From Gemmatimonadota bacterium (GTDB taxonomy: Bacteria; Gemmatimonadota; Gemmatimonadetes; Gemmatimonadales; GWC2-71-9), in the NCBI GenBank assembly GCA_003222055.1, contig QHUT01000064.1:1-59672 (forward strand): 59,672 bases of DNA, given 5' to 3'. The stretch's first letter is position 1. The number at the start of each line of letters is the position of its first letter. Made by a program: the position numbers and the translations under genes. This document shows, piece after piece, positions 27,466 to 57,850 of the stretch. A model generated the notes under the pieces. That model was not told the DNA's origin. It did not search any database and saw only the letters and a program-made list of their open reading frames with translations.

Positions 27466-29079
27466 TCAGTAGTGAACGCCCTTGCGGACCGCGAACCCCC
27501 AGCGGCCGCCGGTGAACCCCTGGCCGAAGCGGTAGCCGACGGCGAACTCCGCCACATCGCCGCGCACGGCGCGGGTTGGGCCGATGCGCAACGACACGCC
27601 GACATCGCCGCCCAGGCGGGGCGCCTCGGTCCGATACCATGCGCCGCCGTAATCGAAGAACGGCGCCAAGCCGACTCCCATCAGCCCCCAGGCCTCATCC
27701 GCGACCAGGATGCGGTCTTCCAGCGCGAGCCAGGCCATCCGCCAACCCGTGAACTGGTGGATTCCGAACACGCGCGGACCGTTCTGCGTCGTCCACAGAT
27801 CGAACTCCTCGCCGAACTTGGGCCGCCGCAGCCGGGCACCTTCAAGGTGCAGGATCAGCGTGTGGCGCGGCACGTTCTGACTCGCCACGGTGAGCGCGCC
27901 CGAGACGCGACCCGAGTCGGGCGCTCCGGCGGTGAAGACGCCGTGCCCGGCTCCGCGCAACACCGCGAATCCCCCGGCCCAGGGGACCGCGACCTGGGCG
28001 CTCAGCTCCGTCCCGATGCCCGCCTCAGTCGGGGCGTACCCCCATGCGCGCGGCGCCACCCACAGCCCGACGCGGAGCGACTGGGACACGTCCACATCCT
28101 CGCGGCGTGCGTACGAGTTGAACCGCTCCAGCACCTGGAACCGGGAGTGCGCGACGTCCACCGCCGCTCCCGCCGTTCCGAACAGCGATCGCCTGATCGC
28201 CGGGGCACCCACGGCGTCGAAATCCTCCCGCCGCCACTGCGCGGCGAACCAGATCCGTACATAGTCCCGCGAGGTGGCGTGGGCGGCGAACCCGACCGTC
28301 ATCCCCAAGCGCAACGCGCGCCGCTCCCGGTCGAGCGACTCGACGTGCGCGCCGTCCTGGTAGTGCAGCACGCGCTCTGACGCCGCCTCGCCGTCGGTGG
28401 TCAGCGCCCGCCGCGCGGCGGTCTCGTAGAATGGGACGCCGAACAGCCACGTGCCCTCCTTCCCGTCGGTCTTGCCCTTGTAGAGGCCCTGCAATTGGAC
28501 GCGGCGGGAAAAGAAGTGGGGATTCACGTAGCCGAGACTGAAGACGCCCCGGTCGGGGGTCCTGTTGTAGACGGCGGTGAGCGACGTGGCCGTTCCCAGC
28601 AGGTTGTCCTCGACGAGCCCCGCCAGCCAGCTGGCGTCGCCCCCCGCGGACGAGTAGCCGAGCTGGGGCTTGGTGCTCCAGCCGTCGGTCGTCGCCACGC
28701 GCAGCGCGAGGCGGCCAGCGAGCCGTGTCGTGTCGATTCGTACGCGGCTGAAGACGCTCAGATTGCGCAACGCCCGCTCGCTCTCGGCCACCCGCGCCGA
28801 GTCGTAGCGGTCCCCGGGGTTGACCGGCAGCGTGCCGCGGATGACGCCGGGGCGCGTCCGGGCGTGCAGCCGGTTGGCGAGCCGGGCGATGAAGCCGGGC
28901 GCGTCGGTCTCCTGCAGGTCGAACACGTTGCGATTCACGACGATGATCGTGTCGATCGTCGCGAGGGGAGATTGGCCGGACAGGCGGACGGGCGGACCGG
29001 CGGTCAGGAGTGCCGCAGCCGTTCCGACCGCCAGTCCGCCCGTCCGCCAGACCGCCGCCGGTCTATTTGACCAAGTCAA
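27466..29079 (-). CDS. Omp85/BamA-like outer-membrane protein with a POTRA domain
   Basis: 537 residues. After a signal peptide (mature near GQSPLATID), residues about 40-120 look like one POTRA domain (VRGT...PVNPGDRYDSARVAESERALRNLSVFSRVRID), the usual N-terminal interaction module. The remainder is a large beta-barrel with a typical C-terminal strand (GYRFGQGFTGGRWGFAVRKGVHY). The single POTRA plus barrel points to a TamA/BamA-like or patatin-associated barrel rather than the essential BamA, which carries five. The signal-peptide region is encoded by a long inverted repeat (28976-29055). The gene overlaps the upstream lipoprotein stop by 17 bases. Confidence 0.75.
   Translation of the reverse strand: MTWSNRPAAVWRTGGLAVGTAAALLTAGPPVRLSGQSPLATIDTIIVVNRNVFDLQETDAPGFIARLANRLHARTRPGVIRGTLPVNPGDRYDSARVAESERALRNLSVFSRVRIDTTRLAGRLALRVATTDGWSTKPQLGYSSAGGDASWLAGLVEDNLLGTATSLTAVYNRTPDRGVFSLGYVNPHFFSRRVQLQGLYKGKTDGKEGTWLFGVPFYETAARRALTTDGEAASERVLHYQDGAHVESLDRERRALRLGMTVGFAAHATSRDYVRIWFAAQWRREDFDAVGAPAIRRSLFGTAGAAVDVAHSRFQVLERFNSYARREDVDVSQSLRVGLWVAPRAWGYAPTEAGIGTELSAQVAVPWAGGFAVLRGAGHGVFTAGAPDSGRVSGALTVASQNVPRHTLILHLEGARLRRPKFGEEFDLWTTQNGPRVFGIHQFTGWRMAWLALEDRILVADEAWGLMGVGLAPFFDYGGAWYRTEAPRLGGDVGVSLRIGPTRAVRGDVAEFAVGYRFGQGFTGGRWGFAVRKGVHY
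28976..29055. repeat. Inverted tandem repeat of a GGCGGACN unit inside the Omp85 signal-peptide region
   Basis: The left arm (28976-29005) and right arm (29026-29055) are reverse complements over about 28 bases with three mismatches. Each arm is itself made of repeated GGCGGAC/GTCCGCC units. It encodes the hydrophobic stretch and cleavage region of the Omp85-like protein. Confidence 0.75.
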
Positions 29080-29635
29080 TGCGCTGGTGCAGCGAATAGG
29101 TCGCGTGGCGAGCGGGGTCGCTCCATTCCGTGAAATACAGCGTCGCGTCTACGCGGCCCGTGATCTGGCGCAGGCCCCGCGTCGCCAGCCGGAAGGTGCC
29201 ACGCACCGAGTCGGGTTTGAGCGGGTGGCAGAAACAGGTCACGGTGGCATACGCGGGAATGCGAGCGTCCGTGCCCCCGAGCGCATACGGGACGTTCTGC
29301 CGAAGATCGTGTGCACGCCCCAGGTCGAGCGCCAGCGTCAACGAGTACTCGTCCCCCTCGCCCTCGGCGGGATTGAAATCGTAGCGGGCCAGCCCCACGT
29401 CACCACCGCCGTGCCCCGTGTCGATCGCCAGGCGCGTCAGGGTGAACCGGGGATCCTGCGTGACCGTGATCCGGCCGTGCCACTCCCACCGAGCGGACGA
29501 TTGAACCCCGAGCGTGTCGTCGAGGCGCGAGGTTGAGTCGCATGCGAGACACAATAACGGCAACAGCGTCGAGCAGAAGCGTCGCGCGACGGCGTTGCAC
29601 AAAAACGTCCCGCGGAGGCATGAAACGGATGCCAC
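29063..29635 (-). CDS. Putative small lipoprotein of unknown function
   Basis: Up to 190 residues from GTG 29635. The lipobox LACD follows a hydrophobic run (STLLPLLCLACDS), so the mature protein is lipidated. The mature part is beta-rich: RWEWHGRITVTQDPRFTLTRLAID, then YSLTLALDLGR, ATVTCFCHPLKPDSV and GRVDATLYFTEWSD. No family is recognised. Start choice is uncertain; a TTG nearer the hydrophobic run is possible. The 5' coding region (29565-29613) overlaps a dispersed 44-bp repeat, so the signal peptide may have been recruited from repeat DNA. It overlaps the Omp85-like gene and is probably co-transcribed with it. Confidence 0.6.
   Translation of the reverse strand: MASVSCLRGTFLCNAVARRFCSTLLPLLCLACDSTSRLDDTLGVQSSARWEWHGRITVTQDPRFTLTRLAIDTGHGGGDVGLARYDFNPAEGEGDEYSLTLALDLGRAHDLRQNVPYALGGTDARIPAYATVTCFCHPLKPDSVRGTFRLATRGLRQITGRVDATLYFTEWSDPARHATYSLHQRIDLVK
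29565..29613. repeat. Dispersed GCGTC-GCAGA-GCGTC element, copy 1
   Basis: Reads GCGTCGAGCAGAAGCGTCGC and then CGACGGCGTTGCAC, AAAAACGTC. It aligns along about 44 bases with 43864-43897 and 57715-57750. This copy lies in the 5' coding region of the lipoprotein gene. Confidence 0.6.
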
Positions 29636-29665
29636 GCTCAGCGATGCCTCCTCCTATCGTGTGCC

Positions 29666-30034
29666 ATGACGCTGCGCGCCTATGCTCGTCGGTTGTGGGT
29701 ACACGAGGTCGCCGTGGAGGTCTCCGTCCGGGTAGCTCGATTGAGCAAGAAGCTGTCCGGACCGGGAGCGGCGCCGCGGGCGGACCAGCTCGTCCGGGCG
29801 GCGCTCTCCGTCAGCTCAAACATAGCGGAGGCCTGCGGCCGCGGCACGATCCCGGAATTCCGCCAGTTCCTGCAGTATGCGAGGGGGTCCGCTCAGGAAA
29901 CGCTGACGCAGTTGCGCGTCGCGGCGGCGCTCGATCCGGTGCATGCAAACGCCATTCACGAGATCGAGGCTCGAGTCGCGCTCATCATCAAGACGCTCGG
30001 GCGTTTGATGGCGCACCCGCCGCCAGATAGGTGA
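29666..30034 (+). CDS. Four-helix-bundle protein (23S rRNA intervening-sequence family)
   Basis: 122 residues. The family signature is complete: LVRAALSVSSNIAEACGRG, EFRQFLQYARGSAQETLTQL and a last helix IEARVALIIKTLGRLM. Members were first described as ORFs inside 23S rRNA intervening sequences, but many are free-standing, as here; no rRNA is visible nearby. The protein forms a pentameric four-helix bundle in solved homologues and its role is unknown. It is followed by a 115-bp array of 13-bp repeats. Confidence 0.85.
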   Translation: MTLRAYARRLWVHEVAVEVSVRVARLSKKLSGPGAAPRADQLVRAALSVSSNIAEACGRGTIPEFRQFLQYARGSAQETLTQLRVAAALDPVHANAIHEIEARVALIIKTLGRLMAHPPPDR

Positions 30035-30040
30035 CGCCTT

Positions 30041-30155
30041 CGTGCTACGTCTTGTGTTACGTCTTTGTGTTACGTCTTTGTGTTACGTCTTTGTGTTACG
30101 CCTTTGTGCTACGCCTTTGTGTTACGTCTTTGTGTTACGCCTTTGTGCTACGTCG
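30041..30155. repeat. Tandem array of about nine 13-bp units (CTTTGTGTTACGT)
   Basis: CTTTGTG(T/C)TACG(T/C) repeats head to tail with only T/C variation, from just after the four-helix-bundle gene to the stop of glnA on the other strand. The unit is the reverse complement of the CGTAGCACAAAGACG piece of the element at 57715-57850. No spacers, so it is not CRISPR. Confidence 0.9.
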
Positions 30156-31505
30156 TCAATATTGCCCGAGGTATCTATCGAGCTCCCATTCGCTGACCTG
30201 CCCGATATACTCCTGCCACTCCTCGCGCTTCGCCTCCACGAATCGCTCGTAAATGTGGGCGCCCAGCGCGTCGCGGATGACGTCGTCCTTCTCGAGCATG
30301 TCGAGCGCTTCGTGCAGATCGCGCGGCAGCTCGTCGATGCGGTACTTGCGCCGCTCGCGAAAGCTCATGGTGAAGATGTTTTTGTTCACCGGATCGGGAG
30401 GGATGAGCTTCTGCTTGATGCCGTCGAGGCCGGCGGCGAGCTGGACCGCGAGGGCGAGGTACGGATTCGCCGAAGGGTCCGGCATCCGCAGCTCGCAACG
30501 CGTGCCGATGCCGCGGCGATCGGGGATCCGCACCAGCGGCGACCGGTTGCGCTGGGACCAGGCCACGTTGGTCGGCGCCTCGTACCCGGGCACCAGCCGT
30601 TTGTAGCTGTTCACCAGCGGATTGGTCACGGCGCAGAAGCCGCGGGCGTGCTTCAGGAGCCCGGCCACGTACTGGATCGCGGTTGCCGAGAGCTCCCACT
30701 TCCCGGCGGGATCGTGAAACGCGTTCTTCCCGCCCTTGAACAGCGACTGGTGCGTGTGCATCCCGGAGCCGTTCTGTCCGAAGATCGGCTTGGGCATGAA
30801 GGTGGCGAGGAAACCGTGGCGGTACGCGACGTTGCGGACCATGAACCGGAACGTCGCGAGGTTATCCGCAGTCTCGAGGGCCGCCGCATAGCGGAAATCG
30901 ATCTCGTGCTGGCCCGGCGCGACTTCGTGGTGGCCCGCCTCCACCTCGAACCCCATCGAGACCAGATCCCGGATGATCAGGCGCCGGATCTCCTCGGCCC
31001 GGTCCACGGGGGTCTGGTCGAAGTAGCCGCCGTGGTCGTGCGTCTCGGTGGTGGGCTCGCCGCTCGCGTCGAGCTGGAAGATGAAGAATTCCGCCTCGGC
31101 CCCGGCCATCATCTCGAAGCCCAGCGCCTTCGCCTCCGCGATCTGTCGCTTCAGCGCCTGCCGCGTGCACCCCGCGAACGACGATCCGTCGGGGTTGTAG
31201 ATGTCGCAGATGAGCCGGGCGATGCGCCCCCCCTCGTCGTCGTACGGCAGCACCCGGAACGTCTCGAGGTCGGGCTTCAGGACCATGTCCGACTCCTCGA
31301 TCCGGACGAACCCCTCGATCGACGACCCGTCGAACATGATGTCGCCCTCGAGCGCCTTCTCGAACTGGCTCTCGGGCACCTCGACGTTCTTGTTGACGCC
31401 CAGGATGTCGGTGAACTGGAGGCGCAGGAAGTTGACCTCCTGCTTCTTGCAGAGCTCGAGCAGCTCGCGCTTCGTCGCGCCGGTGGTCTTGAGAGCGGTG
31501 GCCAT
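30156..31505 (-). CDS. glnA: Glutamine synthetase, type I-alpha-like
   Basis: 449 residues from ATG 31505 (ATGGCCACCGCTC). ATP-dependent ligation of ammonia to glutamate in the cytoplasm. GS-I landmarks: FTDILGVNKNVEVP, MFDGSSIEGF, the metal ligands in AGAEAEFFIF and GHHEVAPGQHEIDFR, and NGSGMHTHQSLF, NKNIFTMS and FRERRKYRIDELPRDL. The short length and the absence of the NLYDL adenylylation segment place it with feedback-regulated GSI-alpha (Bacillus type), unlike its neighbour. It follows the second glnA by 99 bp, a gap filled by an inverted-repeat hairpin. Confidence 0.95.
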   Translation of the reverse strand: MATALKTTGATKRELLELCKKQEVNFLRLQFTDILGVNKNVEVPESQFEKALEGDIMFDGSSIEGFVRIEESDMVLKPDLETFRVLPYDDEGGRIARLICDIYNPDGSSFAGCTRQALKRQIAEAKALGFEMMAGAEAEFFIFQLDASGEPTTETHDHGGYFDQTPVDRAEEIRRLIIRDLVSMGFEVEAGHHEVAPGQHEIDFRYAAALETADNLATFRFMVRNVAYRHGFLATFMPKPIFGQNGSGMHTHQSLFKGGKNAFHDPAGKWELSATAIQYVAGLLKHARGFCAVTNPLVNSYKRLVPGYEAPTNVAWSQRNRSPLVRIPDRRGIGTRCELRMPDPSANPYLALAVQLAAGLDGIKQKLIPPDPVNKNIFTMSFRERRKYRIDELPRDLHEALDMLEKDDVIRDALGAHIYERFVEAKREEWQEYIGQVSEWELDRYLGQY

Positions 31506-31511
31506 AGAGAC

Positions 31512-31594
31512 GAAGAGGATGTAGAAGACGGTAGAAGGCGGTAGAGGACTGCGCAACCTCTACCGACCTCTACCGTCTTCTACCGTCCTCTACC
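31512..31594. repeat. Inverted tandem repeat of a GGTAGAAGAC unit between the two glnA genes
   Basis: The left arm (31512-31547) has about four GGTAGAAGG/AC units. The right arm (31557-31594) holds their reverse complement, CCTCTACCGTCTTCTACC and so on, over roughly 36 bases with few mismatches and a 9-base loop. It fills almost the whole gap and would form a long hairpin in the transcript. Confidence 0.85.
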
Positions 31595-31604
31595 CCGTCT
31601 CACC

Positions 31605-33074
31605 TCAGACGTCGTAATACAAGAAGAATTCGTATGGATGCGGCCGCAGGGCGACGGGGTCCACTTCCTTGGCGCGCTTGTACGCGAGCCACGTCTCGAT
31701 CAGATCGGGCGTGAACACGCCGCCCTCGAGCAGGAAGGCGTGGTCCGCCTCCAGCGCCGCGAGCGACTCGTTCAGGGAGCCCGGCGTGTTCTTCACATGC
31801 TGGCGCTCTTCGGGCTCGAGGTCGTACAGGTCCACGTCCATCGGCTTGGGCGGCTCGATCTTGTGCTTGATGCCGTCGAGGCCCGCCATCAGCAGCGCCG
31901 CGAACGTCAGGTACGGGTTCGACGACGGATCGGGCGCCCGGAACTCGACGCGCTTCGCTTTGGGCGACTTGGAATAGACCGGAATGCGGCAGATCGCCGA
32001 GCGGTTGCGCTGCGAGTAGATCAGGTTGATCGGCGCCTCGTACCCCGGCACCAGCCGCCGGTAGCTGTTGGTCGTCGGCGCCGCGAACGCGAGCAGCGCG
32101 GCCGCGTGCTTGATCAGCCCGCCGATGTACCAGCGCGCCGCATCCGACAACAGGGCATACCCCTTGGCGTCGAAGAACAGGTTCGTCCCGTCCTTCCACA
32201 AGCTCATGTGCACGTGCATGCCCGAGCCGTTGTCCCCGAACATCGGCTTGGGCATGAACGTCGCCGTGTAGCCGTTCTGATGACACACGTTCTTCACGAT
32301 GTACTTGTACATCATCAGCTGGTCGGCCATGCGCGCCAGGGTCGTGAACCGCATGTCGATCTCGGTCTGCCCCGCTGTTCCCACCTCGTGGTGATGCACT
32401 TCGACGTCGACCCCCGACGCGATCAGCGCGAGCATGATCTTCGAGCGCAGGTCCTGCAAGCGGTCGACCGGCGGCACCGGGAAGTAGCCCTCCTTGTGCC
32501 GCGGCCGGTGTCCCTGGTTCGGGCTCCCGTTCGTCCCCGAGTTCCAGATCCCCTCCTCGGAGTCGATGTGGTAGTAGCCTTCGTGCGCGTTCTGATCGAA
32601 GCGCACCGAATTGAAGATGTAGAACTCGGCTTCGGGCCCGTAGTACGCCGTCGTGGCGATCCCCGACTTCACCAGGTGCTGCTCCGCCTTCTGCGCCACG
32701 TAGCGCGGATCGCGCGAGTACCGCGCACCCGTCACGGGGTCGGACACGTCACAGGTGAGCGACAGCGTCGGCACCTCGAGACACGGATCGACGAACGCGC
32801 TCGCCGGGTCGGGAAACAACAGCATGTCGCTCTCGTTGATCGCCTGGAACCCGCGGATCGACGACCCGTCGAATCCGATCCCTTCCTTAAAGAGGTCCTC
32901 CGTGAGCTCCTTGAGCGGAATCGAAAAGTGCTGCCAGGTGCCCGGCAGATCGGTGAACCTCAAGTCCACGACTTGGACCCCGGCGTCTCGCGCCTTGCGG
33001 ATCACGTCGACGACCGTCGCGGTCGCAGGCTTGCCCGCCTGAGGGGTAGTGGTGGGCTCCAACGTCGCGGTCAT
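31605..33074 (-). CDS. glnA: Glutamine synthetase, type I-beta-like with adenylylation site
   Basis: 489 residues with start ATG 33074 preceded by a GAGGAG Shine-Dalgarno. GS-I core motifs: FTDLPGTWQHFSIP, GFDGSSIRGFQAINESDM, YYGPEAEFYIF, VEVHHHEVGTAGQTEIDMRF, NGSGMHVHMSLWKDG and YSQRNRSAICRIP. DLYDLEPEE near the C-terminal third contains the tyrosine that GlnE adenylylates in GSI-beta, so this copy can be switched off covalently. A TTGACA-17-TACCTT promoter and a TGCACA-N6-TGTGCA palindrome lie upstream. It is probably the main assimilatory enzyme, with the alpha-type gene behind it. Confidence 0.95.
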   Translation of the reverse strand: MTATLEPTTTPQAGKPATATVVDVIRKARDAGVQVVDLRFTDLPGTWQHFSIPLKELTEDLFKEGIGFDGSSIRGFQAINESDMLLFPDPASAFVDPCLEVPTLSLTCDVSDPVTGARYSRDPRYVAQKAEQHLVKSGIATTAYYGPEAEFYIFNSVRFDQNAHEGYYHIDSEEGIWNSGTNGSPNQGHRPRHKEGYFPVPPVDRLQDLRSKIMLALIASGVDVEVHHHEVGTAGQTEIDMRFTTLARMADQLMMYKYIVKNVCHQNGYTATFMPKPMFGDNGSGMHVHMSLWKDGTNLFFDAKGYALLSDAARWYIGGLIKHAAALLAFAAPTTNSYRRLVPGYEAPINLIYSQRNRSAICRIPVYSKSPKAKRVEFRAPDPSSNPYLTFAALLMAGLDGIKHKIEPPKPMDVDLYDLEPEERQHVKNTPGSLNESLAALEADHAFLLEGGVFTPDLIETWLAYKRAKEVDPVALRPHPYEFFLYYDV

Positions 33075-33210
33075 GGGTCGCTCCTCAGAGGGCTCGGTTC
33101 ACTCACGCACGTGCACGCTTGATGCCACGAACGACGCGAGCCCCGCGCCCGGCCGGGCGCGATGGGCTCGCAGCAAATTCCCCTATCGGTGGTTACGGCA
33201 GGCATGCGGG

Positions 33211-33325: not shown

Positions 33326-33354
33326 AAAACTGCACGGTTCTCAACACGGCCGTG

Positions 33355-33636
33355 TCAGCTATTCACGGCCTCCACGAAGTGCCATAGCTCGACGGCCGAA
33401 AATTCCCCGAAGCGCTCCTGGACCTCGCGCTCCGACCACTCCAGGAAGATCCAGCTCGTGGTGCGGTGCCGCTCGCCGCTCGCGAAGTGCAGCCGCCCCC
33501 GCACCGCCCCGGGCCCCACTTCCGGGTCGGGCTGTACCTCCATGAAGACGTCCCATCGCTCATCGCCACGCTTCAGCTCGCCCATGTGCTTGGCGCGGTC
33601 ATGCCCGGGAAACGGAGCGCTCATGGGCCGTCGCAC
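33355..33636 (-). CDS. Small conserved-looking protein of unknown function
   Basis: 93 residues. No family recognised. The composition is that of a real soluble protein: [42 protein letters not shown] and ELWHFVEAV read as mixed beta strands and a C-terminal amphipathic helix. The start ATG at 33636 could be replaced by a second ATG at 33624. It is divergent from the zinc-ribbon gene, with a repeat hairpin in the gap. Confidence 0.5.
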   Translation of the reverse strand: MRRPMSAPFPGHDRAKHMGELKRGDERWDVFMEVQPDPEVGPGAVRGRLHFASGERHRTTSWIFLEWSEREVQERFGEFSAVELWHFVEAVNS

Positions 33637-33705
33637 GACGCCACGACGCCACGTGCCACGAGCGTTCGCCTTGTACCTCGTGTAACGTGGCGTCGTACCG
33701 TCGTA
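33634..33705. repeat. Inverted repeat of ACGACGCC units in the divergent gap
   Basis: The left arm 33634-33662 and right arm 33677-33705 are reverse complements at about 23 of 29 bases. Both are made of CACGACGCC-type units. It overlaps the start of the 93-residue protein gene. Confidence 0.65.
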
Positions 33706-33771
33706 TCACGGGTCATGCCGAGTACACTACGCTGCCCTGAGACTTCCCGCCAGTTAGATTTCCCGCCCTCC

Positions 33772-34488
33772 ATGAACTGTCATGCGTGCGGAGCGGCGCT
33801 CGCGGCCACGGCAAAGTTCTGTCACCGGTGCGGCGCCCAGGTCAGCGGCGCCGCGGCCGCCGGCTGGCGAGCCGGGCTTCCCTGGGGCGTGGCTGGGGCG
33901 GCGGTGGGAGCACTGGTTACCGTGCTGGCGCTCCGCATCGGTGCCCCCACGGGAGGCGGGACGAGGGAAGGGGGAAGCGAGTCGAGCGATGACGCATCCC
34001 GCTTCCCCCTTCCCGCTTCCCGCCCCACGCCTCCCGATATTGCACAGATGTCTCCCGAAGAGCGCGCCACCCGGCTGTACAATCGGGTGATGTCGCTCCA
34101 CTCGCAGGGGAAGGCCGACAGTGCGGAGTTCTTCCTGCCCATGGCACTGCAAGCGTACACCATGTTGCCCGCGCTCGACGTCGACGCCCGCTACCACGTC
34201 GGCGTTCTCGATTTGACCGGCGGCAACACCGCAGCGGCCCTGGCTCAAGCCGACACGATCCGGCGGGCGGTGCCCACGCACCTGTTCGGGTTCATGCTGC
34301 GCGCCCGTGCTCTCGAGCTGACGCACGACACCCCAGGCGCCCTGCGCGCCTACCGCGCCTTCCTGCAGAACGAGACGGCCGAGCGGGCGCGGCGGCGGCC
34401 GGAGTACGGTGACCACGCGCAGAACCTCGATTCCTTCCACGACGAGGCGAGGCAGGTGACCGCCGGCAAGTCGACGCGTGGCCGCTGA
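33772..34488 (+). CDS. Zinc-ribbon, single-pass membrane protein
   Basis: 238 residues. The N-terminal zinc ribbon CHACGAALAATAKFCHRCG (two CxxC pairs) is followed by a membrane helix (LPWGVAGAAVGALVTVLALRIG). A Gly/Ser/Pro linker comes next, then a helical domain with TPR-like helices (RLYNRVMSLHSQGKADSAE, GALRAYRAFLQNETAERAR). The linker is encoded by an inverted repeat (33951-34035), so its length may vary between strains. The topology places the ribbon in the cytoplasm. Function unknown. The 3' end overlaps the MqnD-like gene by 11 bases. Confidence 0.75.
   Translation: MNCHACGAALAATAKFCHRCGAQVSGAAAAGWRAGLPWGVAGAAVGALVTVLALRIGAPTGGGTREGGSESSDDASRFPLPASRPTPPDIAQMSPEERATRLYNRVMSLHSQGKADSAEFFLPMALQAYTMLPALDVDARYHVGVLDLTGGNTAAALAQADTIRRAVPTHLFGFMLRARALELTHDTPGALRAYRAFLQNETAERARRRPEYGDHAQNLDSFHDEARQVTAGKSTRGR
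33951..34035. repeat. Inverted repeat of GGGAAGC-type units encoding a protein linker
   Basis: Arms 33951-33979 and 34000-34035 share a perfect 15-base core, GGGAAGGGGGAAGCG with CGCTTCCCCCTTCCC, plus a GGGAGGCG/CGCCTCCC outer pair. The whole element is in frame between the membrane helix and the helical domain of the zinc-ribbon protein. Confidence 0.8.
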
Positions 34489-46265: not shown

Positions 46266-46386
46266 GTGCCGATATTTCTTCGGGTTAGCTCACTTCAGTG
46301 TGCATCGGATGTGGAGGGTAACCTAGCCCCGTGTTTACCATTGCCGCGCCCGTCCACATGATGTGGAGTTGTGAATCAACACGAGA

Positions 46387-46482
46387 AGCAGGTTGTGGAG
46401 GATCGGGAGGTTGGGGAGGTTGGGGGAGGTTGTCCCGCTGCGATGCAACCTCCCCCAGCCTCCCGAACCTCCCGAACCTGCT
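46387..46482. repeat. Inverted tandem repeat of GGGAGGTTG units
   Basis: The left arm (46387-46432) has about five GGGAGGTT-type units opening with AGCAGGTT. The right arm (46446-46482) is the reverse complement, CAACCTCCC... ending AACCTGCT, with a 13-base loop. The same AACCTCC unit recurs as a one-arm array in the alpha/beta hydrolase gene at 51806-51850. Confidence 0.85.
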
Positions 46483-46486
46483 TTAG

Positions 46487-48249: not shown

Positions 48250-48795
48250 ATGATTCCGGTTCGGGGCACCATGCTGGCCCTGCTCCTCCCCGCGCAGCTG
48301 GCCGGTCAAGCCGCCGCGCCGGCTCCCCCGGCCTACCGCGGCTTCACGCCCGGCATCGGCTATCGGGCGTTCGTGCAGCAGGCGCGGGCGCTCGCGGACA
48401 ACGACGTGCTGCGCTGCCAGACGTCGCCGCGCACGGCGCAGATCATGGAGTGTGCCGTCCTGATCCGCGATCCCCGCGATGGGGCGCGGTTCTATCTGAG
48501 CGCCCACTTCATCGAGAGCGACGCCGACATGGTCGCGCTGTACGATTCGGCGGGGTTCGGCAACGCGCACGGCGTGGCGCTGCTGGACCGCACGAAGCGC
48601 GATCTCACGCGCGTCTTCGGTAGGCCCCACGTGCTCGGGGCTGGCGCCTGGCAATGGCGCTATGGCCGCCGCGTGGTGCGGCTCAGCTGGCGAGGGCGCG
48701 GGACGGCCCGCTGGGTGTCCATCACCCTCACCGACGGCGTCGTGATGGACCGGATCAGCCGGTACGCCAGAGCAGCCGCAAGGCGTAAGCCCTAA
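48250..48795 (+). CDS. Exported protein of unknown function
   Basis: 181 residues from ATG 48250. Signal peptide around LALLLPAQLAGQAA. The mature protein is mixed alpha/beta: GFTPGIGYRAFVQQARALA, MECAVLIRDPRDGARFYLSAHF and KRDLTRVFGRPHVLGAGAWQWRYGRRVVRLSWRG. There are two cysteines, but no family signature. The 3' end runs into the repeat at 48783, so its basic tail (AAARRKP) may be repeat-encoded. It is convergent with the ADP-ribosylglycohydrolase gene. Confidence 0.6.
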   Translation: MIPVRGTMLALLLPAQLAGQAAAPAPPAYRGFTPGIGYRAFVQQARALADNDVLRCQTSPRTAQIMECAVLIRDPRDGARFYLSAHFIESDADMVALYDSAGFGNAHGVALLDRTKRDLTRVFGRPHVLGAGAWQWRYGRRVVRLSWRGRGTARWVSITLTDGVVMDRISRYARAAARRKP

Positions 48796-48880
48796 GCGGA
48801 CGCAAGCCTCAAGCCGTAAGACGTTCTTGCGACTGGCCGTCAGCGACTTGCAACCGCTTACGGCTGGCGGCTGGCGGCTT
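48783..48880. repeat. Inverted repeat of AAGCC/GTAAGC units between convergent genes
   Basis: The left part (48783-48825) is built of AGGCGTAAGCC, AAGCCTCAAGCCGTAAG. The right part (48857-48880) has CTTACGGCTGGCGGCTGGCGGCTT. The arms are imperfect reverse complements, so a transcript from either gene would form a hairpin. Confidence 0.65.
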
Positions 48881-51600: not shown

Positions 51601-52500
51601 ATGCTCGCTCTCCGGATCGCGCTCGGGCTCGCGCTGGCGTACGCGCTGCTCGTGCTGCTCGCGTGGCGGTTCCAGGAGCGGCTCGCCTTTCCGGCGCCGC
51701 GCGCTCCGGTCCCGGATCCGAAACGCGTCGGCGTAGCGAACGGCGAGCAGATCGAGGTGACAACGGCGGACGGAACGAGACTGGTGGGGTGGTACTTGAA
51801 ACCCGAAGTCCCCCAACCTCCTCCAACCTCCCCAACCTCCCCTAGCCTCCTCTGGTTCTACGGCAACGGCGAGACCATCGCGGCCATCTGGCCCATCGTG
51901 CGCGAGTTTCAGCCGCCCGGAACGGCCGTCCTGGTGGTCGACTATCCGGGCTACGGTGGGAGCGCGGGCCGGGCGACCGAGACGGCAATGTACGGCGCGG
52001 CGGACGCCGCCTACGCCGCTTTGGTCGCGCGGCCCGGGGTCGACACGGACCGCGTTTACGTCTACGGCCGCTCGCTCGGCACCGCAGCCGCGACGTGGGT
52101 GGCGGCGCGCCATCCCGTCGCCGGCCTGATCCTCGAATCCCCCTTCACCAGCGCGGCCGCGATGGCGCGCCAGCTGTATGCCCTGTTGCCGCGCTTTATC
52201 GTCCGCCTGTCACTCGACAACCTCGGGCGCATGAGGCAGATCCGCTGCCCGGTGCTCGTGTTCCACGGGGATGCCGACCGCCTCGTGCCGACGGCGATGG
52301 GAAGAGAGGTCGCTGCAACTGCCCCGGGACCGGTCGAGCTGGTCCTGATCCACGGCGCGGGGCACAACGAGACCTACGACCGCGGCGGGCGGGCGTACCG
52401 CGATAAGATCTGGGAGTTCATCTCCCGAACGGGACGGGGGACGGGGGAAGAGGGACGGGGCCACACCACCCGTCCTCCGTCCCTCGTCCCCCGTCCCTAG
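51601..52500 (+). CDS. Alpha/beta hydrolase, membrane-anchored
   Basis: 299 residues with an N-terminal anchor (LRIALGLALAYALLVLLAW). The fold is clear: LLWFYGNGETIA (oxyanion region), VYVYGRSLGTAAATWVA (nucleophile elbow GRSLG with the serine), FHGDADRLVP (acid) and LIHGAGHNET (histidine). Short-chain esterase or thioesterase activity is likely; the substrate is unknown. Two repeat segments are in frame: a Pro/Ser-rich run from AACCTCC units near residue 75, and a C-terminal tail (TGRGTGEEGRG...) from an inverted repeat at 52431-52497. Confidence 0.85.
   Translation: MLALRIALGLALAYALLVLLAWRFQERLAFPAPRAPVPDPKRVGVANGEQIEVTTADGTRLVGWYLKPEVPQPPPTSPTSPSLLWFYGNGETIAAIWPIVREFQPPGTAVLVVDYPGYGGSAGRATETAMYGAADAAYAALVARPGVDTDRVYVYGRSLGTAAATWVAARHPVAGLILESPFTSAAAMARQLYALLPRFIVRLSLDNLGRMRQIRCPVLVFHGDADRLVPTAMGREVAATAPGPVELVLIHGAGHNETYDRGGRAYRDKIWEFISRTGRGTGEEGRGHTTRPPSLVPRP
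51806..51850. repeat. AACCTCC tandem units inside the hydrolase gene
   Basis: CCCCAACCTCCTCCAACC is followed by further AACCTCCCC units. The unit matches the right arm of the hairpin at 46387-46482. It encodes the Pro/Ser-rich loop PQPPPTSPTSPSLL. Confidence 0.7.
52431..52497. repeat. Inverted repeat of GGGACGGGG units at the hydrolase 3' end
   Basis: The left arm (52431-52460, GGGACGGGGGACGGGGGAAG...) and right arm (52469-52497, ending CGTCCCCCGTCCC) are near reverse complements. The element supplies the last 20-odd codons and stop of the hydrolase and sits between convergent genes. Confidence 0.75.
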
Positions 52501-52503
52501 CTC

Positions 52504-53346
52504 TTAGATGACCACCACCGGCACGATCCGATCCCGCCGCTGATCGAATTGGCGTTCCGCGTCGTCGAGCGTGCGCAGCACCGCCGGATCGTCACCGTCG
52601 GCGAACTTCGAGCTCGGCGCCACGCGTCCCGTGAGCCGGCGCACGGCCACGAGGGCCCGGGTCACCTCGCAGCGCTCCACGTCGGGGTCGGTGTGGCCCG
52701 TGACGAGCAGCTCCTCGAACAGCGGGAGGGTGCGCTCCTCCGCGAGGACGTACAGCGACTCGAGAATCTTGGGACCGAGGAAGCGGCGCAGCAGCTGGTC
52801 GCCGCGGATGCGCTGAAACAGGCGCTCCAGCACTTCGGCGTGCCCCACGTAGAACCGCGCCGCTTCCACCGCCGCGGCGACGAACGCGTGGTGCGCTCCG
52901 GGAGTCACGAGATAGCGCTCGAACAGCGGCCAGGCGCCTTCCGGATGGCGCTCCGCGAGCGCGAGGAACGCGAAATAGCGGCGGCCCAGCGGAGCCGCCG
53001 TATCGGCGATGACGGTGCGCAACCCGGCCACGCCCCAGCGCGCCCCGGCGAGCGCCGCGGCGGCCGCGTGCTGACAGCGCTCCAGCTCGGGAACGCGGAA
53101 GGTCACGAGATGCGGATCGAGGAACGAGCGGCAGCGCTCCAGCACGGCGAGGAGCCGGCGGTCCACCGCGTGGAGGGCGGGCTCGAGCGCCGCACTGTTC
53201 GCCCGTCGGGCGAGCGCCAGCGCCTCCCACGCGAGGCGGTCGAGATGTGCGGCGTCCCACGCCCGCTCGAAGGCGGCGGCATCGGGAGCGACCAGGAGGG
53301 GTTCGAGAGCACCGGCAAACCGATACAGGGCGCGCGACGGTTCCAT
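52504..53346 (-). CDS. Protein of unknown function, alpha-helical repeat type
   Basis: 280 residues from ATG 53346. Nearly all alpha-helical, with a periodicity close to HEAT-like repeats: ALEPALHAVDRRLLAVLERCR, RYFAFLALAERHPEGAWPLFERYL, AAAVEAARFYVGHAEVLERLF and QLLRRFLGPKILESLYVLAEE. No catalytic motif. It may be a scaffold. It is divergent from the substrate-binding lipoprotein, with a repeat element in between. Confidence 0.6.
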   Translation of the reverse strand: MEPSRALYRFAGALEPLLVAPDAAAFERAWDAAHLDRLAWEALALARRANSAALEPALHAVDRRLLAVLERCRSFLDPHLVTFRVPELERCQHAAAAALAGARWGVAGLRTVIADTAAPLGRRYFAFLALAERHPEGAWPLFERYLVTPGAHHAFVAAAVEAARFYVGHAEVLERLFQRIRGDQLLRRFLGPKILESLYVLAEERTLPLFEELLVTGHTDPDVERCEVTRALVAVRRLTGRVAPSSKFADGDDPAVLRTLDDAERQFDQRRDRIVPVVVI

Positions 53347-53476
53347 CTGCACCAAGCTACGCCCCCGCCGCACGCTGGCAAACGGCGTTTGTCCACATCC
53401 ATCTGGAAAACCGGGTGGAAACCCTGCGGGAATGTTGCGATTCACCCCGTGCGCGCTTAACCTTGCCCCGCATCGA

Positions 53477-53577
53477 CCTCACCCCCTGGCCCCCTCTCCA
53501 CAACGTGGAGAGGGGGAACGGATGACCGTCCGCCGTTCCCCGTCTCCGCCGTGCGGAGAGGGGGTCAGGGGGTGAGG
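53477..53577. repeat. Paired CCCTCTCC palindromes in the divergent promoter region
   Basis: The outer 23-base arms CCTCACCCCCTGGCCCCCTC... and ...GAGGGGGTCAGGGGGTGAGG are reverse complements with one mismatch. Two smaller palindromes lie inside, CCCTCTCCAC-AAC-GTGGAGAGGG and GTCTCCGC-CGT-GCGGAGA. This is the same family as 23265-23319 and 51369-51408. Confidence 0.88.
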
Positions 53578-53581
53578 CCAC

Positions 53582-54700
53582 TTGGAGGGCCCTCTGCGAA
53601 CCCCAGCTCTCGTCATCGCTGTCGCGCTGGCGGCGTGCTCCCGCCCCACGGGGCCGATCACCATCGGCCTCGCGGGCCCCTTCTCCCAACCGCGCGGCGC
53701 GTCCATGCTGCGGGCAGCCCAACTGGCGGTGAACCAGATCAATGCCAGGCGCGGCGTACGCGGCCGGCCGCTCGAGCTGCGGGTCGCCGATGACTCGGGG
53801 AGCGAAGACACCGCCGTGCGGGTGGCGGAGCAGCTGTACGCGGATCCGACGGTCGTGGCGGTGGTGGGGCACCTCTCGTCCGGCACGACGATCGCCGCCG
53901 CACGGGTGTACGGCGCCGGGGCCACTCCCGTGGCGATGATCTCGCCCTCGGCGTCGAGCCCCGATCTGTCCGGGTTGAGCCCGTGGGTGTTCCGGGTGTG
54001 TCCAAGCGACCTGCAGCACGGGCCCGAGCTGGCCCGCTTCGCCTGGCAAGGGCTGGGCGCGCGGCGGGCGGGCATCATCTACATCAACAATGACTACGGG
54101 CGCGGGGTCCGCGGCACGTTCGCGGCGGAGTTCACGCGACTGGGTGGAGCCGTGGTGGAAGCGGATCCGTACGTCGCGGCGACGCTCTCGCTCGAGCCGT
54201 ACCTGTCCCGCATGCGGCGGGAGGGGATCGACGTGCTGCTCATCGCCGGCGAGCGGCCGGGGGCGGAGCTCGCGCTCCGGGAGATGGCGTCGCTGGGCGT
54301 GCGCTGGCCGGTGCTCGGAGGCGACGCGCTCACGGGCATCGAGGCCGACGGGGCTCTCGCGGAGGGGGTGCGGATCTCCTCGGCTTATCTGCCCGACCGG
54401 CGCGACGAGCGCAACGCGACGTTCGTGGCGGATTACGCCCGCGCCTTCCCGGGGCTGCGCCCCGACCACCGTGGGGCCGGGGCGTACGATGCCGTGCTGC
54501 TGCTGGCGCGGGCGGTCGAGCGCGCGGGGGCCGGGCGGGACGCGGTCCGCGACTATCTCGCGCATGTCGGCCCGGGCCGGGGGCAGTTCGAGGGCGTCAC
54601 GGGCACGATCGCGTTCGACGCCAACGGCGACGTGCGGGGGAAGACGGTGGTGATCGGTGTGGTGCACGACGGCGCGTTGGTGACCCAGGCGGAGCGGTGA
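53582..54700 (+). CDS. Substrate-binding lipoprotein (branched-chain amino acid type) for chemotaxis
   Basis: 372 residues from TTG 53582, starting 5 bases after the repeat. Lipobox LAACS. The Peripla_BP_6 fold is clear: [93 protein letters not shown] and [17 protein letters not shown]. No ABC permease is next to it. The stop overlaps the chemoreceptor start (ATGA), so it probably delivers a ligand to that receptor. Confidence 0.85.
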
Positions 54701-56397
54701 TGCGGAGTCCCCTCGCCACCATCCGGAACCGGATTCTGGTGGGGCTGGTGCTGCTCATGGTCGGCCTGGTAGTCACGGCGATCGCCGGCGCGGCCACGCT
54801 CCGCCGTATGCGCAACGCCGTGGCGGAGGAGCTGGCCGGGCTGCGGGCGTCGACCGAGGTGGGGAGCGGTCTGGTCACGAGCGTGCTCGAGGAGATCCGC
54901 GCGGCCGAGCAGTATCTCGCATCCCCGGGCGCCGATGCGCGGCGGCAGTTTCAGACGACCGCCGAAGACGCGTTCCAGTACGAGCGGCGGCTGGACGCCC
55001 TGGGCGGCCTCACCGCCGAAGACCGCCTCACCGTCAACCGCCTCGAGCGGCTGCACGCCACGATCCAAACCGAATACTCGATCGCCCACGCGTTGAAGGA
55101 CCTGGGGCGGGATCAGGAAGCCGTGGCCCGGGCCGCTCTAGTCCGGTCCCAGGCGACCGAGTTGACTCGTCTGGTGCGCGATCTGTCGCGGCGCCAGGCC
55201 CAGAAGGCGGCGAAGGCGGCGGAACGGCTGACCGCGGACGCCGCCGAGCGGGAGCGCAAGCTCTGGGCGTTCGTGGTCGCGCTGGTCGTCGCGGGCGTGT
55301 TCCTGTCGCGCTATACGCTCCAGTCGGTGCAGGGCCCGCTCGCGCGCCTCGTGACCGCCGCGGAGCGGTTCGGGGCGGGCGACCTGCGGCCGGTCACGAC
55401 CGGCGACATGCCCCGCGAGTTCCGGGTGCTCGCCGACGCGATGCAGCACATGGGGGACCGGCTGCGCCGGATCGTCGGCGAGGTGATCACCGAGGCGGAC
55501 CGGATCGCCGGGTCGGCGGGGGATCTGTCCGCGGTGAGCGAGCAGCTCGCCGCCTCCTCGAGCGAGGTGTCGACGGCGATGGTGGAGATCTCCAGCGGCG
55601 CGGATCAGCAGCGCGCCGCGCTCGGCTCCATGGGTACGGGACTGGACCAGCTGGGCAAGGCGACGGGGGACATGGCGGACGCGGCGGAGCGGGCGGCGAA
55701 GCTGGGCGAGGAGATCCGCACGGTGGCCGAGCGGCACCGCGGCGACGTGGCCGCCGCCGGCGGCGTGCTGCTGGACGTGCGCGAGGTGGTTCAGACCAGC
55801 TCCAAGCAGATCGCACAGCTCACGGAGCTCTCCAGCTCGATCGACGACTTCGTCGATCTCATCAAGCGCATTTCGTCGCAGACGAACCTGCTCGCCTTGA
55901 ACGCCGCGATCGAGGCGGCGCGCGCCGGCGAGCACGGCCGCGGGTTCGCCGTCGTGGCCGAAGAAGTCCGCCAGCTGGCCGACGAATCGGCGCGCGCGGC
56001 CGAGGAGGTGACGCGCACCACGGGCCTGATCCGCGAGCAAATGGAGGACGTCACGGCCACGATGGCGGCCGGTCAGGCCAAAGTGCGGGGCATCGAGTCC
56101 GTCGCGGAAGGGGCGGCGCACGGTCTCGCCGAGATCGCCGCGGCGGTGGAGCTGGTGGAGCAGGCGGCGGCGCGGGTCCGCATGGCGGCGCAGTCGAACC
56201 GCGAAACGACGGTGCGCCTGCAGGCACAGGCGCAACAGGTGTCGGGGCGCGCGACGGCGCATGCGAGCGGAGCGGAGCAGGTGACGGCCGCCGCGGAGCA
56301 GCAGGGCGCATCGACCCAGGAGATGGCGGCCGCCGCGGGGAGCCTGCAGCAGGCGGCCGACAAGCTACACGAATTGGTGCAGGGGTTCCGGGTCTAG
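54697..56397 (+). CDS. Methyl-accepting chemotaxis protein
   Basis: 566 residues. Membrane helix 1 ([22 protein letters not shown]), a periplasmic helical sensor of about 155 residues, helix 2 ([19 protein letters not shown]), a HAMP segment ([20 protein letters not shown]), then a long coiled coil. The signalling tip is the family signature [20 protein letters not shown] and [22 protein letters not shown]. Ligand is most likely supplied by the coupled binding lipoprotein. No C-terminal pentapeptide for CheR is seen. No che genes are in the window. Confidence 0.95.
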
Positions 56398-56407
56398 GGC
56401 CGCGAAT

Positions 56408-56731
56408 TCACCGGCGCGACTTCTTCTTGGCGGGTTTCTTCTTCGGCGCCGGTTTGGGCTTGGCCGCGCTCTTGGGGGGCCTGCGCTTGAGCGCGCCCTG
56501 GACGTCGGCGAGGACGCGGTCGCCTTCCTCCGGCCCGATCAGGCCGCGGCGCACCGCGTACCGGATGAGCTCCTCGGCGTCGTCGACGGTGAACTCGCCC
56601 AACCCCGCGGCGCCGCGGATCGCCTTGACCAGGGCGTCCGCCACGGGGCTGCGCAGCACACTCGCGATGCCGGGGAGGGCTTCGAGCAGCGAAGAAATCT
56701 GCGACCCGCCGAGCTCAGCTGGGGGGGGCAT
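56408..56731 (-). CDS. Small protein with a lysine-rich tail, unknown function
   Basis: 107 residues. The N-terminal part is helical (ISSLLEALPGIASVLRSPVADALVKAI). The middle, FTVDDAEELIRYAVRRGLIGPEEGDRVL, reads like a small winged or helical module. The C-terminal 30 residues are basic (KPKPAPKKKPAKKKSRR), as in DNA-associated proteins. TTGACG-17-TAGCTT lies upstream. No family recognised; the tail suggests nucleic-acid binding, an inference. Confidence 0.6.
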   Translation of the reverse strand: MPPPAELGGSQISSLLEALPGIASVLRSPVADALVKAIRGAAGLGEFTVDDAEELIRYAVRRGLIGPEEGDRVLADVQGALKRRPPKSAAKPKPAPKKKPAKKKSRR

Positions 56732-56764
56732 GGAACGCGCTGCTCCGGCGCTGAAGGTCGCGCC

Positions 56765-56793
56765 AAGCTACATCGACCCCTCGGGAGCGTCAA
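56765..56793 (-). promoter_or_regulatory. Promoter-like TTGACG-N17-TAGCTT
   Basis: Minus-strand -35 TTGACG (56793-56788) and -10 TAGCTT (56770-56765) with a 17-base spacer, placed 34 bases before the small lysine-rich protein's start. It matches the other candidate promoters here. Confidence 0.5.
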
Positions 56794-56809
56794 GGATTTT
56801 CCGCCGGAA

Positions 56810-57073
56810 CTACGGCTGTGCCGCGCGGTTACGACGCTGGCGCAACGCCTGGACCAGCCCGCCCGGCGCCCGACGCGAGATCGTCAAATCGGAGTGCGAC
56901 AAGAGCTCGCCGAGCACGCTGCGGGTCTTGGCGTCGAGCGGCATGCCGAAGTGCAGGTCGAGCTGGTACTCGGCGTGATCGGCGCCCTGGCCGGTGAGCG
57001 TGAAGCCCTGAGGGTCGGGTCGAGCCGCATCCACCTCGATCTCGGCGACAGGCTCGTACTTGGGGCGGTCCAT
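56810..57073 (-). CDS. Small protein of unknown function
   Basis: 87 residues from ATG 57073, preceded by CGGAGG. Alpha/beta: KYEPVAEIEVDAARPDPQGFTLTG, YQLDLHFGMPLDAKTRSVLGELL and DLTISRRAPGGLVQALRQRR. No family recognised. A promoter-like TTGACA-16-TATCTC lies about 25-50 bases upstream on the same strand, supporting a real short gene. Confidence 0.55.
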   Translation of the reverse strand: MDRPKYEPVAEIEVDAARPDPQGFTLTGQGADHAEYQLDLHFGMPLDAKTRSVLGELLSHSDLTISRRAPGGLVQALRQRRNRAAQP

Positions 57074-57098
57074 CTGGCGGAACCTCCGGGCTGGATGA

Positions 57099-57126
57099 GA
57101 GATACGCCCCCCGGCAAGGCTGTCAA
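57099..57126 (-). promoter_or_regulatory. Promoter-like TTGACA-N16-TATCTC
   Basis: Minus-strand -35 TTGACA (57126-57121) and -10 TATCTC (57104-57099), spacer 16, before the 87-residue gene. The SD sequence CGGAGG follows. Confidence 0.5.
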
Positions 57127-57202
57127 GCAGGCTCGAAATCGTTCCGCTGGAAGGCCTTCCTGGGGTGACTAGATTCCCAGGTCGGAGGCGCGAACGAGAG
57201 CC

Positions 57203-57475
57203 GTGGGACGACGCGGAGTAAAGGAATACCGGGCGCCGGAAGCGCTGGCGCTGATCGCGGCGGACCGCGAGCATGTGCCCCTGGTTTGCCCCTCGTGCGG
57301 GACGCGGTCGATCGTGCGCGCACCCCGGCGACGCGGGGGGAGCAAGCTCGGGCCGCTCGCGCCGGAGCGCGTGACGCTCACCTGCCAGAGCTGCGGCCGG
57401 CATGCGTCGTACATCGAGCGGGGCCGGGAGCCCCCGCGGGACGAGACGATGGATCCGCACGCGGCGCGGGCGTAG
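57203..57475 (+). CDS. Small zinc-ribbon protein
   Basis: 90 residues starting with GTG 57203. Two CxxC pairs, [10 protein letters not shown] and [10 protein letters not shown], form one zinc ribbon. The segment between them is basic ([12 protein letters not shown]), which suggests nucleic-acid binding. No family recognised. It is 20 bp upstream of infA and probably co-transcribed. Confidence 0.6.
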
Positions 57476-57495
57476 GACGAGGAGGCGACAGGGAC

Positions 57496-57711
57496 GTGGC
57501 GGGCGACGCGATTCAGATGATGGGCACCATCACCGAGGTGCTTCCCAACACCACCTTCCGCGTGCAGCTCGAGAACGGACACGAGGTGCTGGCGTACGTC
57601 AGCGGGAAGATGCGCAAGAACTACATCCGGATTCTGCAGGGAGATCGAGTGGCGGTGGACCTCTCTCCGTACGACCTTACTCGCGGAAGAATTACCTACC
57701 GTTACAAATAG
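57496..57711 (+). CDS. infA: Translation initiation factor IF-1
   Basis: 71 residues from GTG 57496, with AGGAGG 11 bases upstream. The S1-type OB fold is nearly identical to other IF-1 proteins: [39 protein letters not shown] and [18 protein letters not shown]. It binds the ribosomal A site during initiation. The N-terminus is shorter by a few residues than the usual MAKEE... form. It is followed by a large hairpin-rich convergent gap. Confidence 0.95.
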
Positions 57712-57714
57712 AGG

Positions 57715-57850
57715 CGTCAAGCAGAGACGTAGCACGATGGCGTAGCACAAAGACGTCACGCACCAACGTAAGAGGCCGGGATCGCTCCCGGCCTCTTGAC
57801 GTATCTGCGTGACGTTTCTGCGAGACGTTCTCGCTCGACGCCTTTTTTCT
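57715..57850. repeat. Long inverted repeat with terminator core; copy 3 of the GCGTC element
   Basis: The left part (57715-57769) begins GCGTCAAGCAGAGACGTAGC and aligns with copies 1 and 2. A perfect 11-bp stem AAGAGGCCGGG/CCCGGCCTCTT (57770-57797) forms the core. The right part (57798-57842) is GACGT-rich and complements the left. It ends CGCCTTTTTT. It should terminate both infA and the convergent porin gene. Confidence 0.75.

Follow-up and report, generated by a model that had tools for sequence, protein, structure and literature searches.

Introduction

The closest described counterparts of the structures reported here are the intervening sequences (IVSs) of 23S rRNA genes, in which, as in Coxiella and Leptospira, an open reading frame (ORF) of the S23/IVP type (PF05635) lies within an inverted-repeat stem (PMC4990558, in part). 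According to the same portion of that source, an IVS measures 428 nt, rRNA IVSs are cut by RNase III, and a mobile origin of IVSs has been discussed or suspected by earlier authors. We analyzed a stretch of 59,672 nucleotides (hereafter, the window), which is the whole of contig QHUT01000064.1 in a 3.69-Mb, 173-contig metagenome-assembled genome (MAG) of a soil Gemmatimonadota bacterium, and which carries an IVP gene between arms of tandem words together with a series of long hairpins built from short tandem words. We conclude that these hairpins are probably miniature, ORF-less members of dispersed mobile elements of the 23S rRNA IVS type, and not terminators that arose in situ. Like an rRNA IVS, a full element here has a PF05635-type ORF within an inverted-repeat stem and is of comparable size (~500 bp for the element at locus L218). 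The differences are that the elements lie between protein genes, that there are about ten IVP genes per genome, that the arms consist of tandem words, and that ORF-less hairpin derivatives exist. Since the element in the window is located outside a 23S rRNA gene (no Rfam family matched in a scan of the window), it is of the IVS type but is not an rRNA IVS.

Several other systems share some of these features. REPIN/RAYT systems (PMC3116915, in part) also comprise short, non-autonomous extragenic hairpins that have spread through a genome, fall into several sequence groups and have specific partner genes, but the arms here are tandem 7–13-nt words and their partner gene encodes a four-helix bundle with no known transposase activity. 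The GGGAATC and GGGGA(T/C)T heptamers of Xanthomonas and Nostoc (PMC4692102, in part) are likewise intergenic G-rich arrays whose position is kept while their sequence varies; two Xanthomonas genomes hold 70 and 75 inverted heptamer pairs, which were interpreted as simple repeats or G-quadruplexes, and neither "S23" nor "four helix" occurs in the main text of that paper. The cyanobacterial plasmid IVP genes described below carry heptamer arms. The TAACTGA repeats of Beggiatoaceae (PMC4679880, in part) form heptamer arrays between genes, including those of ribosomal-protein operons, and a repeat-binding protein was proposed as a possible mobile element; they differ in being direct repeats, with one inverted repeat, and no IVP link appears in the sections covered. 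Earlier publications describe IVP genes located in cas loci (PMC3936711, in part) and rRNA inserts that contain IVP domains (PMC11270868, in part). We found no prior link between IVP genes and tandem inverted arms in the portions consulted of the open PMC literature; bioRxiv and subscription papers, which were outside our scope, may contain one.

Hairpin words recur across the genome and match the arms of IVP genes

The original prediction held that most hairpins of the window use a unit of their own, and that these are unrelated sequences sharing one architecture. Our genome sample consisted of 41 pieces (618,484 bp), namely the window, 35 pieces that were not picked for hairpins (458,812 bp), and five BLAST-picked pieces (L009–L013), which were counted apart. 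With an ungapped hairpin finder, 43 hairpins scored at least 48 (10 in the window, 25 in the 35 pieces, and 8 in the five BLAST-picked pieces), and five shuffles of each sample set gave 0–2. Tandem arms were present in 33 of the 43, versus 1.2 expected from arm shuffling. The single architecture with differing words was thus borne out; private and unrelated words are true inside the window only, and the wider sampling rules out locus-private units. Across the 618,484 bp, a small set of words is common to many loci: ATTGCGG, GGATTGC, GGGAAGC/GGGATGC/GGGACGG, GGGGCTC, GGAACGC, GGCGGACN, GGTAGAGGAC, ACGACGCC, AACCTCCCC, AAAGACGTAGCAC, and GGGAGGTT. The 5′ arm is the G-richer one in 29/33 tandem hairpins; we rejected a G-rich 5′ arm as a functional feature, as, by eye, the ACGACGCC and CGTCATC words do not fit. 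By our own simple gene caller, which supplied all gene calls and starts and over-calls ORFs, the centers of 12/33 tandem hairpins fall inside ORFs, versus 29.5 expected; like REPINs, these are short palindromic elements scattered in extragenic space. The unit period is 7 in 20 of the 33, a trait of short tandem heptanucleotide repeats in intergenic space. The short tandemly repeated repetitive (STRR) sequences of heterocystous cyanobacteria are repeats of this kind, similar to the GGGAATC type.

The genome of the window (G000) contains 11 PF05635 genes above the family cut-off. We examined the flanks of 41 IVP genes, comprising these 11 and 30 of the 48 matches listed in five relatives, alongside 119 control genes of similar size. 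Flanking inverted repeats reached a score (IR) of at least 36 at 37/41 IVP genes and at least 46 at 33/41, whereas the controls gave 13/119 and 2/119, respectively. The IVP ORF is therefore enclosed by terminal inverted repeats, as in an IVS, the window's own copy being weak (IR 42). Many arms consist of tandem words, and these are the words of the hairpins: ACGACGCC at L217, GGGAAGC at L218, GGAGGTT at L213, GGGGCTC at L212, GCGGAAT/AATCCGC at L221, and the 13-mer of the window's own weak element (L220). Within this genome, 28/33 tandem hairpins matched the word of an IVP arm above the level of shuffled arms, compared to 3/33 for control flanks (11 genes from the control set). We tentatively ascribe those three matches, all of them to GGCGGACN hairpins, to a control gene that lies beside the 28976 hairpin. 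Pairs of hairpin and IVP words specific to one genome were also seen by eye, with GGTGTCA in G035 (L229 with L141), GGGCAGAGTC in G019 (L231 with L173), and CGTCATC in G001 (L224 with L164). The identity of IVP proteins correlates weakly but significantly with the similarity of their arms (Spearman 0.175 over 528 pairs; 16 of 2000 permutations).

The IVP genes are under purifying selection, with ratios of nonsynonymous to synonymous substitution rates (dN/dS) of 0.03–0.14 in four pairs and 0.13 for the window IVP against its counterpart in the congener G009. The closest solved structure to the window IVP is 2GSC (XCC0516; E 1.6e-9), a pentamer of four-helix bundles (PMC4990558, in part).

Hairpins are present, absent, or replaced in a close relative

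G009 aligns along nearly the entire window, mostly at 89–96% identity (77% in the final 1.5 kb). We compared 20 sites with this genome, of which 19 aligned; 57715 did not. The word is kept at five sites (31512, 33634, 46387, the 30034 array, and the IVP element at L029:6210), and the structure is partial at four: 28976, where the right arm is gone and the left arm is degenerate; 33951; 48783; and the half-hairpin at 51811 (51809–51850), where G009 has both arms and 51 additional nucleotides, a multiple of three. Six sites have no hairpin in G009. The absence is clean at 52431, L029:18132, and L023:3940; L023:1180 has ten other bases, and 53477 and L023:16726 have diverged junctions.

At the remaining four sites, G009 carries a different element. 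The ~500-bp IVP element at L029:3861 faces an CCCCGGGC palindrome there; L029:5347 and L029:14920 have GGATTGC here versus GGAACGC in G009, on both arms; and the fourth site is 23270, which, like 53477, belongs to a non-tandem family. Among the matches listed, 37 places in G009 match one GGAACGC hairpin. Pfam assignment of the neighboring genes puts L023:1180 in the gap from tuf to rpsJ and L023:3940 in that from rplB to rpsS, such that hairpins stand here within the S10 ribosomal-protein operon. The earlier view that the hairpins are not a copied element is at odds with the sharing of words among many loci, with their match to IVP arms, and with hairpins that one close relative has and another lacks.

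Distribution among genomes and candidate partner enzymes

In samples of 20–100 kb per genome, tandem hairpins occurred at 13.6 per 100 kb in G001, 11.9 in G019, 5.2 in G009, 2.9 in G024, and 2.0 in G035, and none was found in G013, G022, G036, G027, G015, G029, G031, G037, and G043 (387 kb in all). The six hairpin-bearing genomes (these five and G000) have 7–12 IVP genes, and the nine without hairpins have 0, 0, 1, 2, 2, 3, 3, 3, and 8. In the order-level relatives G053 and G060, tandem hairpins or arrays occur near IVP genes, in pieces that were picked for those genes. The IVP gene with inverted arms is also found in cyanobacteria, Bacteroidota, and Gemmatirosa. All six IVP genes of the Bacteroidota genome G061 exceeded five shuffles, and in further Bacteroidota genomes 16/27 exceeded 20 shuffles, with 13/27 scoring at least 42 versus 2/91 pseudo-gene controls. 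All 15 plasmid IVP loci studied, out of 22 records found, exceeded ten shuffles, Stanieria barely so (45 vs. 44); among other coding sequences in these loci, 3/25 scored at least 45. In Azospirillum, an IVP gene within the 23S rRNA (RF02541) forms a classical IVS with the same kind of tandem arms as the elements here (GGACGGA/GGACAGA type).

Two of the cyanobacterial plasmids have an IVP gene between cas6 and cas4 (L288, 1131–1908; L296, 1285–1966), with arms of short tandem units, which suggests insertion into cas operons and not a cas function.

An explanation that we regard as unlikely is that the hairpins are REPIN-like, in which case a Y1 tyrosine transposase (RAYT) or else a reverse transcriptase would move them, and the IVP genes would be passengers in the arms. 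REPINs, too, are doublets that form hairpins and fall into several sequence groups (PMC3116915, in part), and Y1_Tnp genes are found in G000, G009, G019, G024, and G035. However, G001, in which hairpins are densest, has no Y1_Tnp (PF01797) match in its draft genome (93% complete), so that, as far as draft genomes show, a RAYT is not a needed partner; moreover, mere passengers would hardly occur in some ten word lineages of one genome. Avd, a component of diversity-generating retroelements, is described as homologous to PF05635 in both sequence and structure (PMC10053308, in part), but belongs to reverse-transcriptase systems. RVT_1 was matched in none of the six hairpin-bearing genomes and in 5/61 genomes searched, which, again as far as draft genomes show, speaks against a needed reverse transcriptase partner and against a retroelement of this type. 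Rho (PF07497) occurs once in each of the six hairpin-bearing genomes, twice in 7/9 hairpin-free ones, and once in G013 and G027, a difference that is possibly unrelated to the hairpins; as Rho is present in hairpin-bearing genomes, its loss was rejected as a driver.

The glutamine synthetase slot, termination, and word change

The 31512 hairpin occupies a slot between two glutamine synthetase genes, and a hairpin is found in this slot at 23/23 loci that keep the gene pair, in 22 distinct sequences. These hairpins fold at z-scores of −3.5 to −15.8 (−9.0 for the window). The slot words range from GGTAGAGGAC through GGCGGCAAGG, GACGGTAAGG, GGCGGTTN, and GGTGGAGGTC, and GGCGGTTN, the slot word of G035, is shared in G035 by a second hairpin and by an IVP element. 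We examined 26 loci and left out L062, L063, and L099, which have neither a hairpin nor the end of the second glutamine synthetase; among the 23, L055 and L060 are identical, and L055 and L057 are from one MAG. Together with the two slots that hold GGATTGC here and GGAACGC in the congener, this agrees with the expectation that position would be conserved and the unit would not.

The glutamine synthetase locus in L053, a record titled Acidobacteria (AA50), is of the kind typical for these Gemmatimonadota, being 88% identical and having the same hairpin slot; the record is perhaps mis-binned. By eye, a CGTTACC-type heptamer hairpin in L126 (G041) and a CTCACCT-type array in L116 (G046) lie beside glutamine synthetase. 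Each represents a further family of this order, so the hairpin habit may extend beyond the clade.

It is very unlikely, in our judgment, that the hairpins are structural terminators, that is, long intergenic hairpins selected to end transcription in both directions, with a word that is free to drift. In favor of such a role are the strong hairpin that persists in the glutamine synthetase slot despite the change of word, the non-tandem GC hairpin that another family of the order has in the same slot (L115 and L119 by scan; L114 by eye), the avoidance of called ORFs, and a modest excess in convergent gaps, which hold 5/19 placed hairpins versus 23/203 background gaps. By gap type, 9 tandem hairpins are co-directional, 5 convergent, 5 divergent, and 2 at an edge, and the background contains 23 convergent and 49 divergent gaps. 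Against it, TTTT occurs within 10 nt of an end in only 2/33 hairpins, five hairpins are in divergent gaps, and strong terminators between tuf and rpsJ or between rplB and rpsS would silence ribosomal genes; the sharing of words across loci and with IVP arms would also be left unexplained. Termination of both neighboring transcripts, as had been proposed, is therefore not supported as the general role.

The units of a hairpin resemble one another. In six hairpins of the GGGAxGx class, the variable letter is alike in 83/125 pairs of units within a hairpin compared to 214/695 pairs between hairpins (0.66 vs. 0.31; 0 of 20000 permutations); two GGGAGGT hairpins were dropped from this test, and with them the counts are 104/146 and 248/1129. 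It follows that the units of one element change their word together, and a mutational process may explain how they do so. A purely mutational origin, in which slippage arrays and a template-switched inverted arm formed independently at each locus, would account for this homogenization and for the existence of single-armed arrays (51809–51850, and the much longer right array at 30034–30154), but is highly improbable given that many loci and the surroundings of IVP genes share the same words, mostly in the same arm order, and that whole hairpins are cleanly present or absent at three sites. Slippage and template switching, as previously invoked, thus suit the change of words by arm-to-arm copying and not the origin of each locus. 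As an interpretation, the original prediction stands in respect of the shared architecture and the conserved slots; its denial of copying and its terminator role do not.

Proposed mechanism and points against it

Anatomy and distribution give good support to our reading, that the hairpins are ORF-less members of IVS-type mobile elements, while its mechanism is inferred. The architecture, word sharing, presence or absence, slot replacement, and near-restriction to IVP-rich genomes are observed directly. A full element consists of an arm of tandem 7–13-nt units, then usually ~30–100 nt, a gene for a four-helix-bundle IVP (PF05635) of 117–151 amino acids, and the arm again in inverted orientation, which starts at the stop codon or shortly after it. 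Many words would go with one architecture because each IVP lineage would have a word of its own and a carrier has about ten IVP genes in its genome. Elements would come to rest downstream of a stop codon, before the following gene, or in parts of proteins that tolerate them; slots would be reused by different element families; and words would change through slippage and arm-to-arm copying within an element. The IVP, whose solved relative is an oligomer, may bind the arm of its own word, either as hairpin RNA or as single-stranded DNA, and may promote the copying of own-word arms in trans. By analogy with rRNA IVSs, RNase III might cut the long stem out of transcripts, so that an intercistronic insertion would be harmless; if so, this would fit the insertions in the S10 operon.

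A number of observations weigh against this reading. There is no enzyme inside the element, no transposition was seen, and we know of no catalytic activity of an IVP. A clear target-site duplication was not visible at the compared junctions, the junctions at 53477 (of a non-tandem family) and 16726 are not clean, and absence in G009 could be deletion there; for the GGATTGC family, insertion here is favored since few places matched in G009. Five tandem hairpins had no word match: three with GGCGGACN, for which this genome has no IVP, and one each with GGGATGC and GGGACGA. Eight of the 41 IVP genes fall under IR 46, namely L220 (the window, 42), L248 (44), L251 (40), L252 (36), L216 (33), L240 (31), L222 (30), and L214 (29), with arrays still visible beside some of them. 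When only pairs within genomes are taken, the correlation between protein and word is not significant (p 0.15), so the link may be simple co-inheritance. Both G031 and G039 have eight IVP genes and no hairpin in 40 kb. Of the further Bacteroidota IVP genes, 11/27 were not above shuffles. The same applies to L255, which has one array and is truncated on the right where the contig ends, and to L256, which has no array.

We tentatively put forward a wider possibility, namely that PF05635 proteins are dedicated mobility factors of a class of elements without a transposase, integrase, or reverse transcriptase of their own, each lineage recognizing its own short word, repeated in tandem on two inverted arms, and spreading both the element and its ORF-less hairpins. 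The rRNA IVSs and at least the IVP-flanking heptamers of cyanobacteria would be members, and the Xanthomonas hairpins are predicted to be. If true, such a mobilizing protein would, to our knowledge, be unlike known families of transposases, integrases, and reverse transcriptases. One testable account would then cover three puzzles, that is, the origin of 23S rRNA IVSs, the role of the PF05635 "four helix bundle/S23" proteins, and the tandem-heptamer hairpins. Repeat words would become footprints of identifiable element lineages, whose activity, specificity, and host range could be read from sequence.

Features of the window

Relatives of the window are Gemmatimonadota soil MAGs; its glutamine synthetase is 99% identical in record QHUU01000063.1. 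All eight hairpins of the original prediction were located close to where they had been placed (Table 1), seven of them folding at z-scores, taken from the minimum free energy (MFE) of the RNA against 200 dinucleotide shuffles, of −5.7 to −9.7 (28976, −8.6; 31512, −9.6; 33634, −6.0; 33951, −5.7; 46387, −9.7; 52431, −6.4; 57715, −6.6) and one weakly (48783, −2.1). The window has 10 ungapped inverted repeats scoring at least 48, six of them with tandem arms, versus a single one across ten dinucleotide shuffles and none in another five. The 48783 and 57715 hairpins are outside these ten and become visible by gapped folding. In the right array of the IVP element, the best-pairing part is 30085–30119, and the window's own arms pair weakly.

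Table 1. Coordinates of the IVP element and hairpins in the window
Feature	Coordinates	Strand	Remarks
IVP element left arm, degenerate 13-nt word ..AAAAACGT	29574..29608	none	L220, IR 42 vs. shuffle maximum 33
IVP gene, 122 aa, PF05635 23S_rRNA_IVP	29666..30034	+	E 1.6e-20
IVP element right arm, 9.4 copies of 13-nt word ACGTCTTTGTGTT	30034..30154	none	abuts glutamine synthetase stop
ORF-less hairpin, 8-nt word GGCGGACN	28976..29055	none	no IVP with this word found in the genome
ORF-less hairpin, 10-nt word GGTAGAGGAC	31512..31600	none	between two glutamine synthetase genes
ORF-less hairpin, 8-nt word ACGACGCC	33622..33717	none	word of IVP element L217 (G000:C7)
ORF-less hairpin, 7-nt word GGGAAGC	33950..34035	none	word of IVP element L218 (G000:C17)
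ORF-less hairpin, 9–10-nt word GGGAGGTTG	46386..46483	none	word of IVP element L213 (G000:C17)
Weak hairpin, AAGCC/GTAAGC words	48783..48880	none	z −2.1; partly deleted in G009
Hairpin right half, AACCTCCCC word	51809..51850	none	within N-terminal part of hydrolase ORF 51601–52500
ORF-less hairpin, 7-nt word GGGACGG	52431..52497	none	3′ end of hydrolase ORF; cleanly absent in G009
Hairpin, 13-nt GACGT-type word	57715..57850	none	by folding

Several of the hairpins had been placed between convergent genes, but by our gene calls this holds for only one of the eight (52431). Those at 31512, 48783, and 57715 are in co-directional gaps, and those at 33634, 33951, and 46387 in divergent ones; 28976 is in a co-directional gap by the caller, which becomes divergent if the 29063 ORF (without a Pfam match) is dropped. 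Three hairpins had also been counted inside coding sequence, and that number is only partly right: an alpha/beta-hydrolase ORF is indeed overlapped at its 3′ end by 52431 and also contains the surviving half-hairpin at 51809–51850, which was absent from the earlier list. As a description, the original prediction was thus correct that the structures exist; its private words hold only within the window, and its convergent placement for one hairpin.

By eye, the 48783 hairpin is similar to the arms at one of the G001 IVP loci (L200/L245), and the word of the 57715 hairpin is of the same class as that of the window's own IVP element. An exact 76-bp tandem duplication at the start of the contig (1–152) is possibly an assembly end effect. 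Two non-tandem palindrome families, CCTCACCCCC..GAGAGGGGG and CCCCGGGC..GCCCGGGG, were observed at 23253–23331 and 53477–53577 of the window and at the L029 3861 site; they occupy slots that are also used by tandem hairpins, and one lies inside an AcrB-family transporter ORF.

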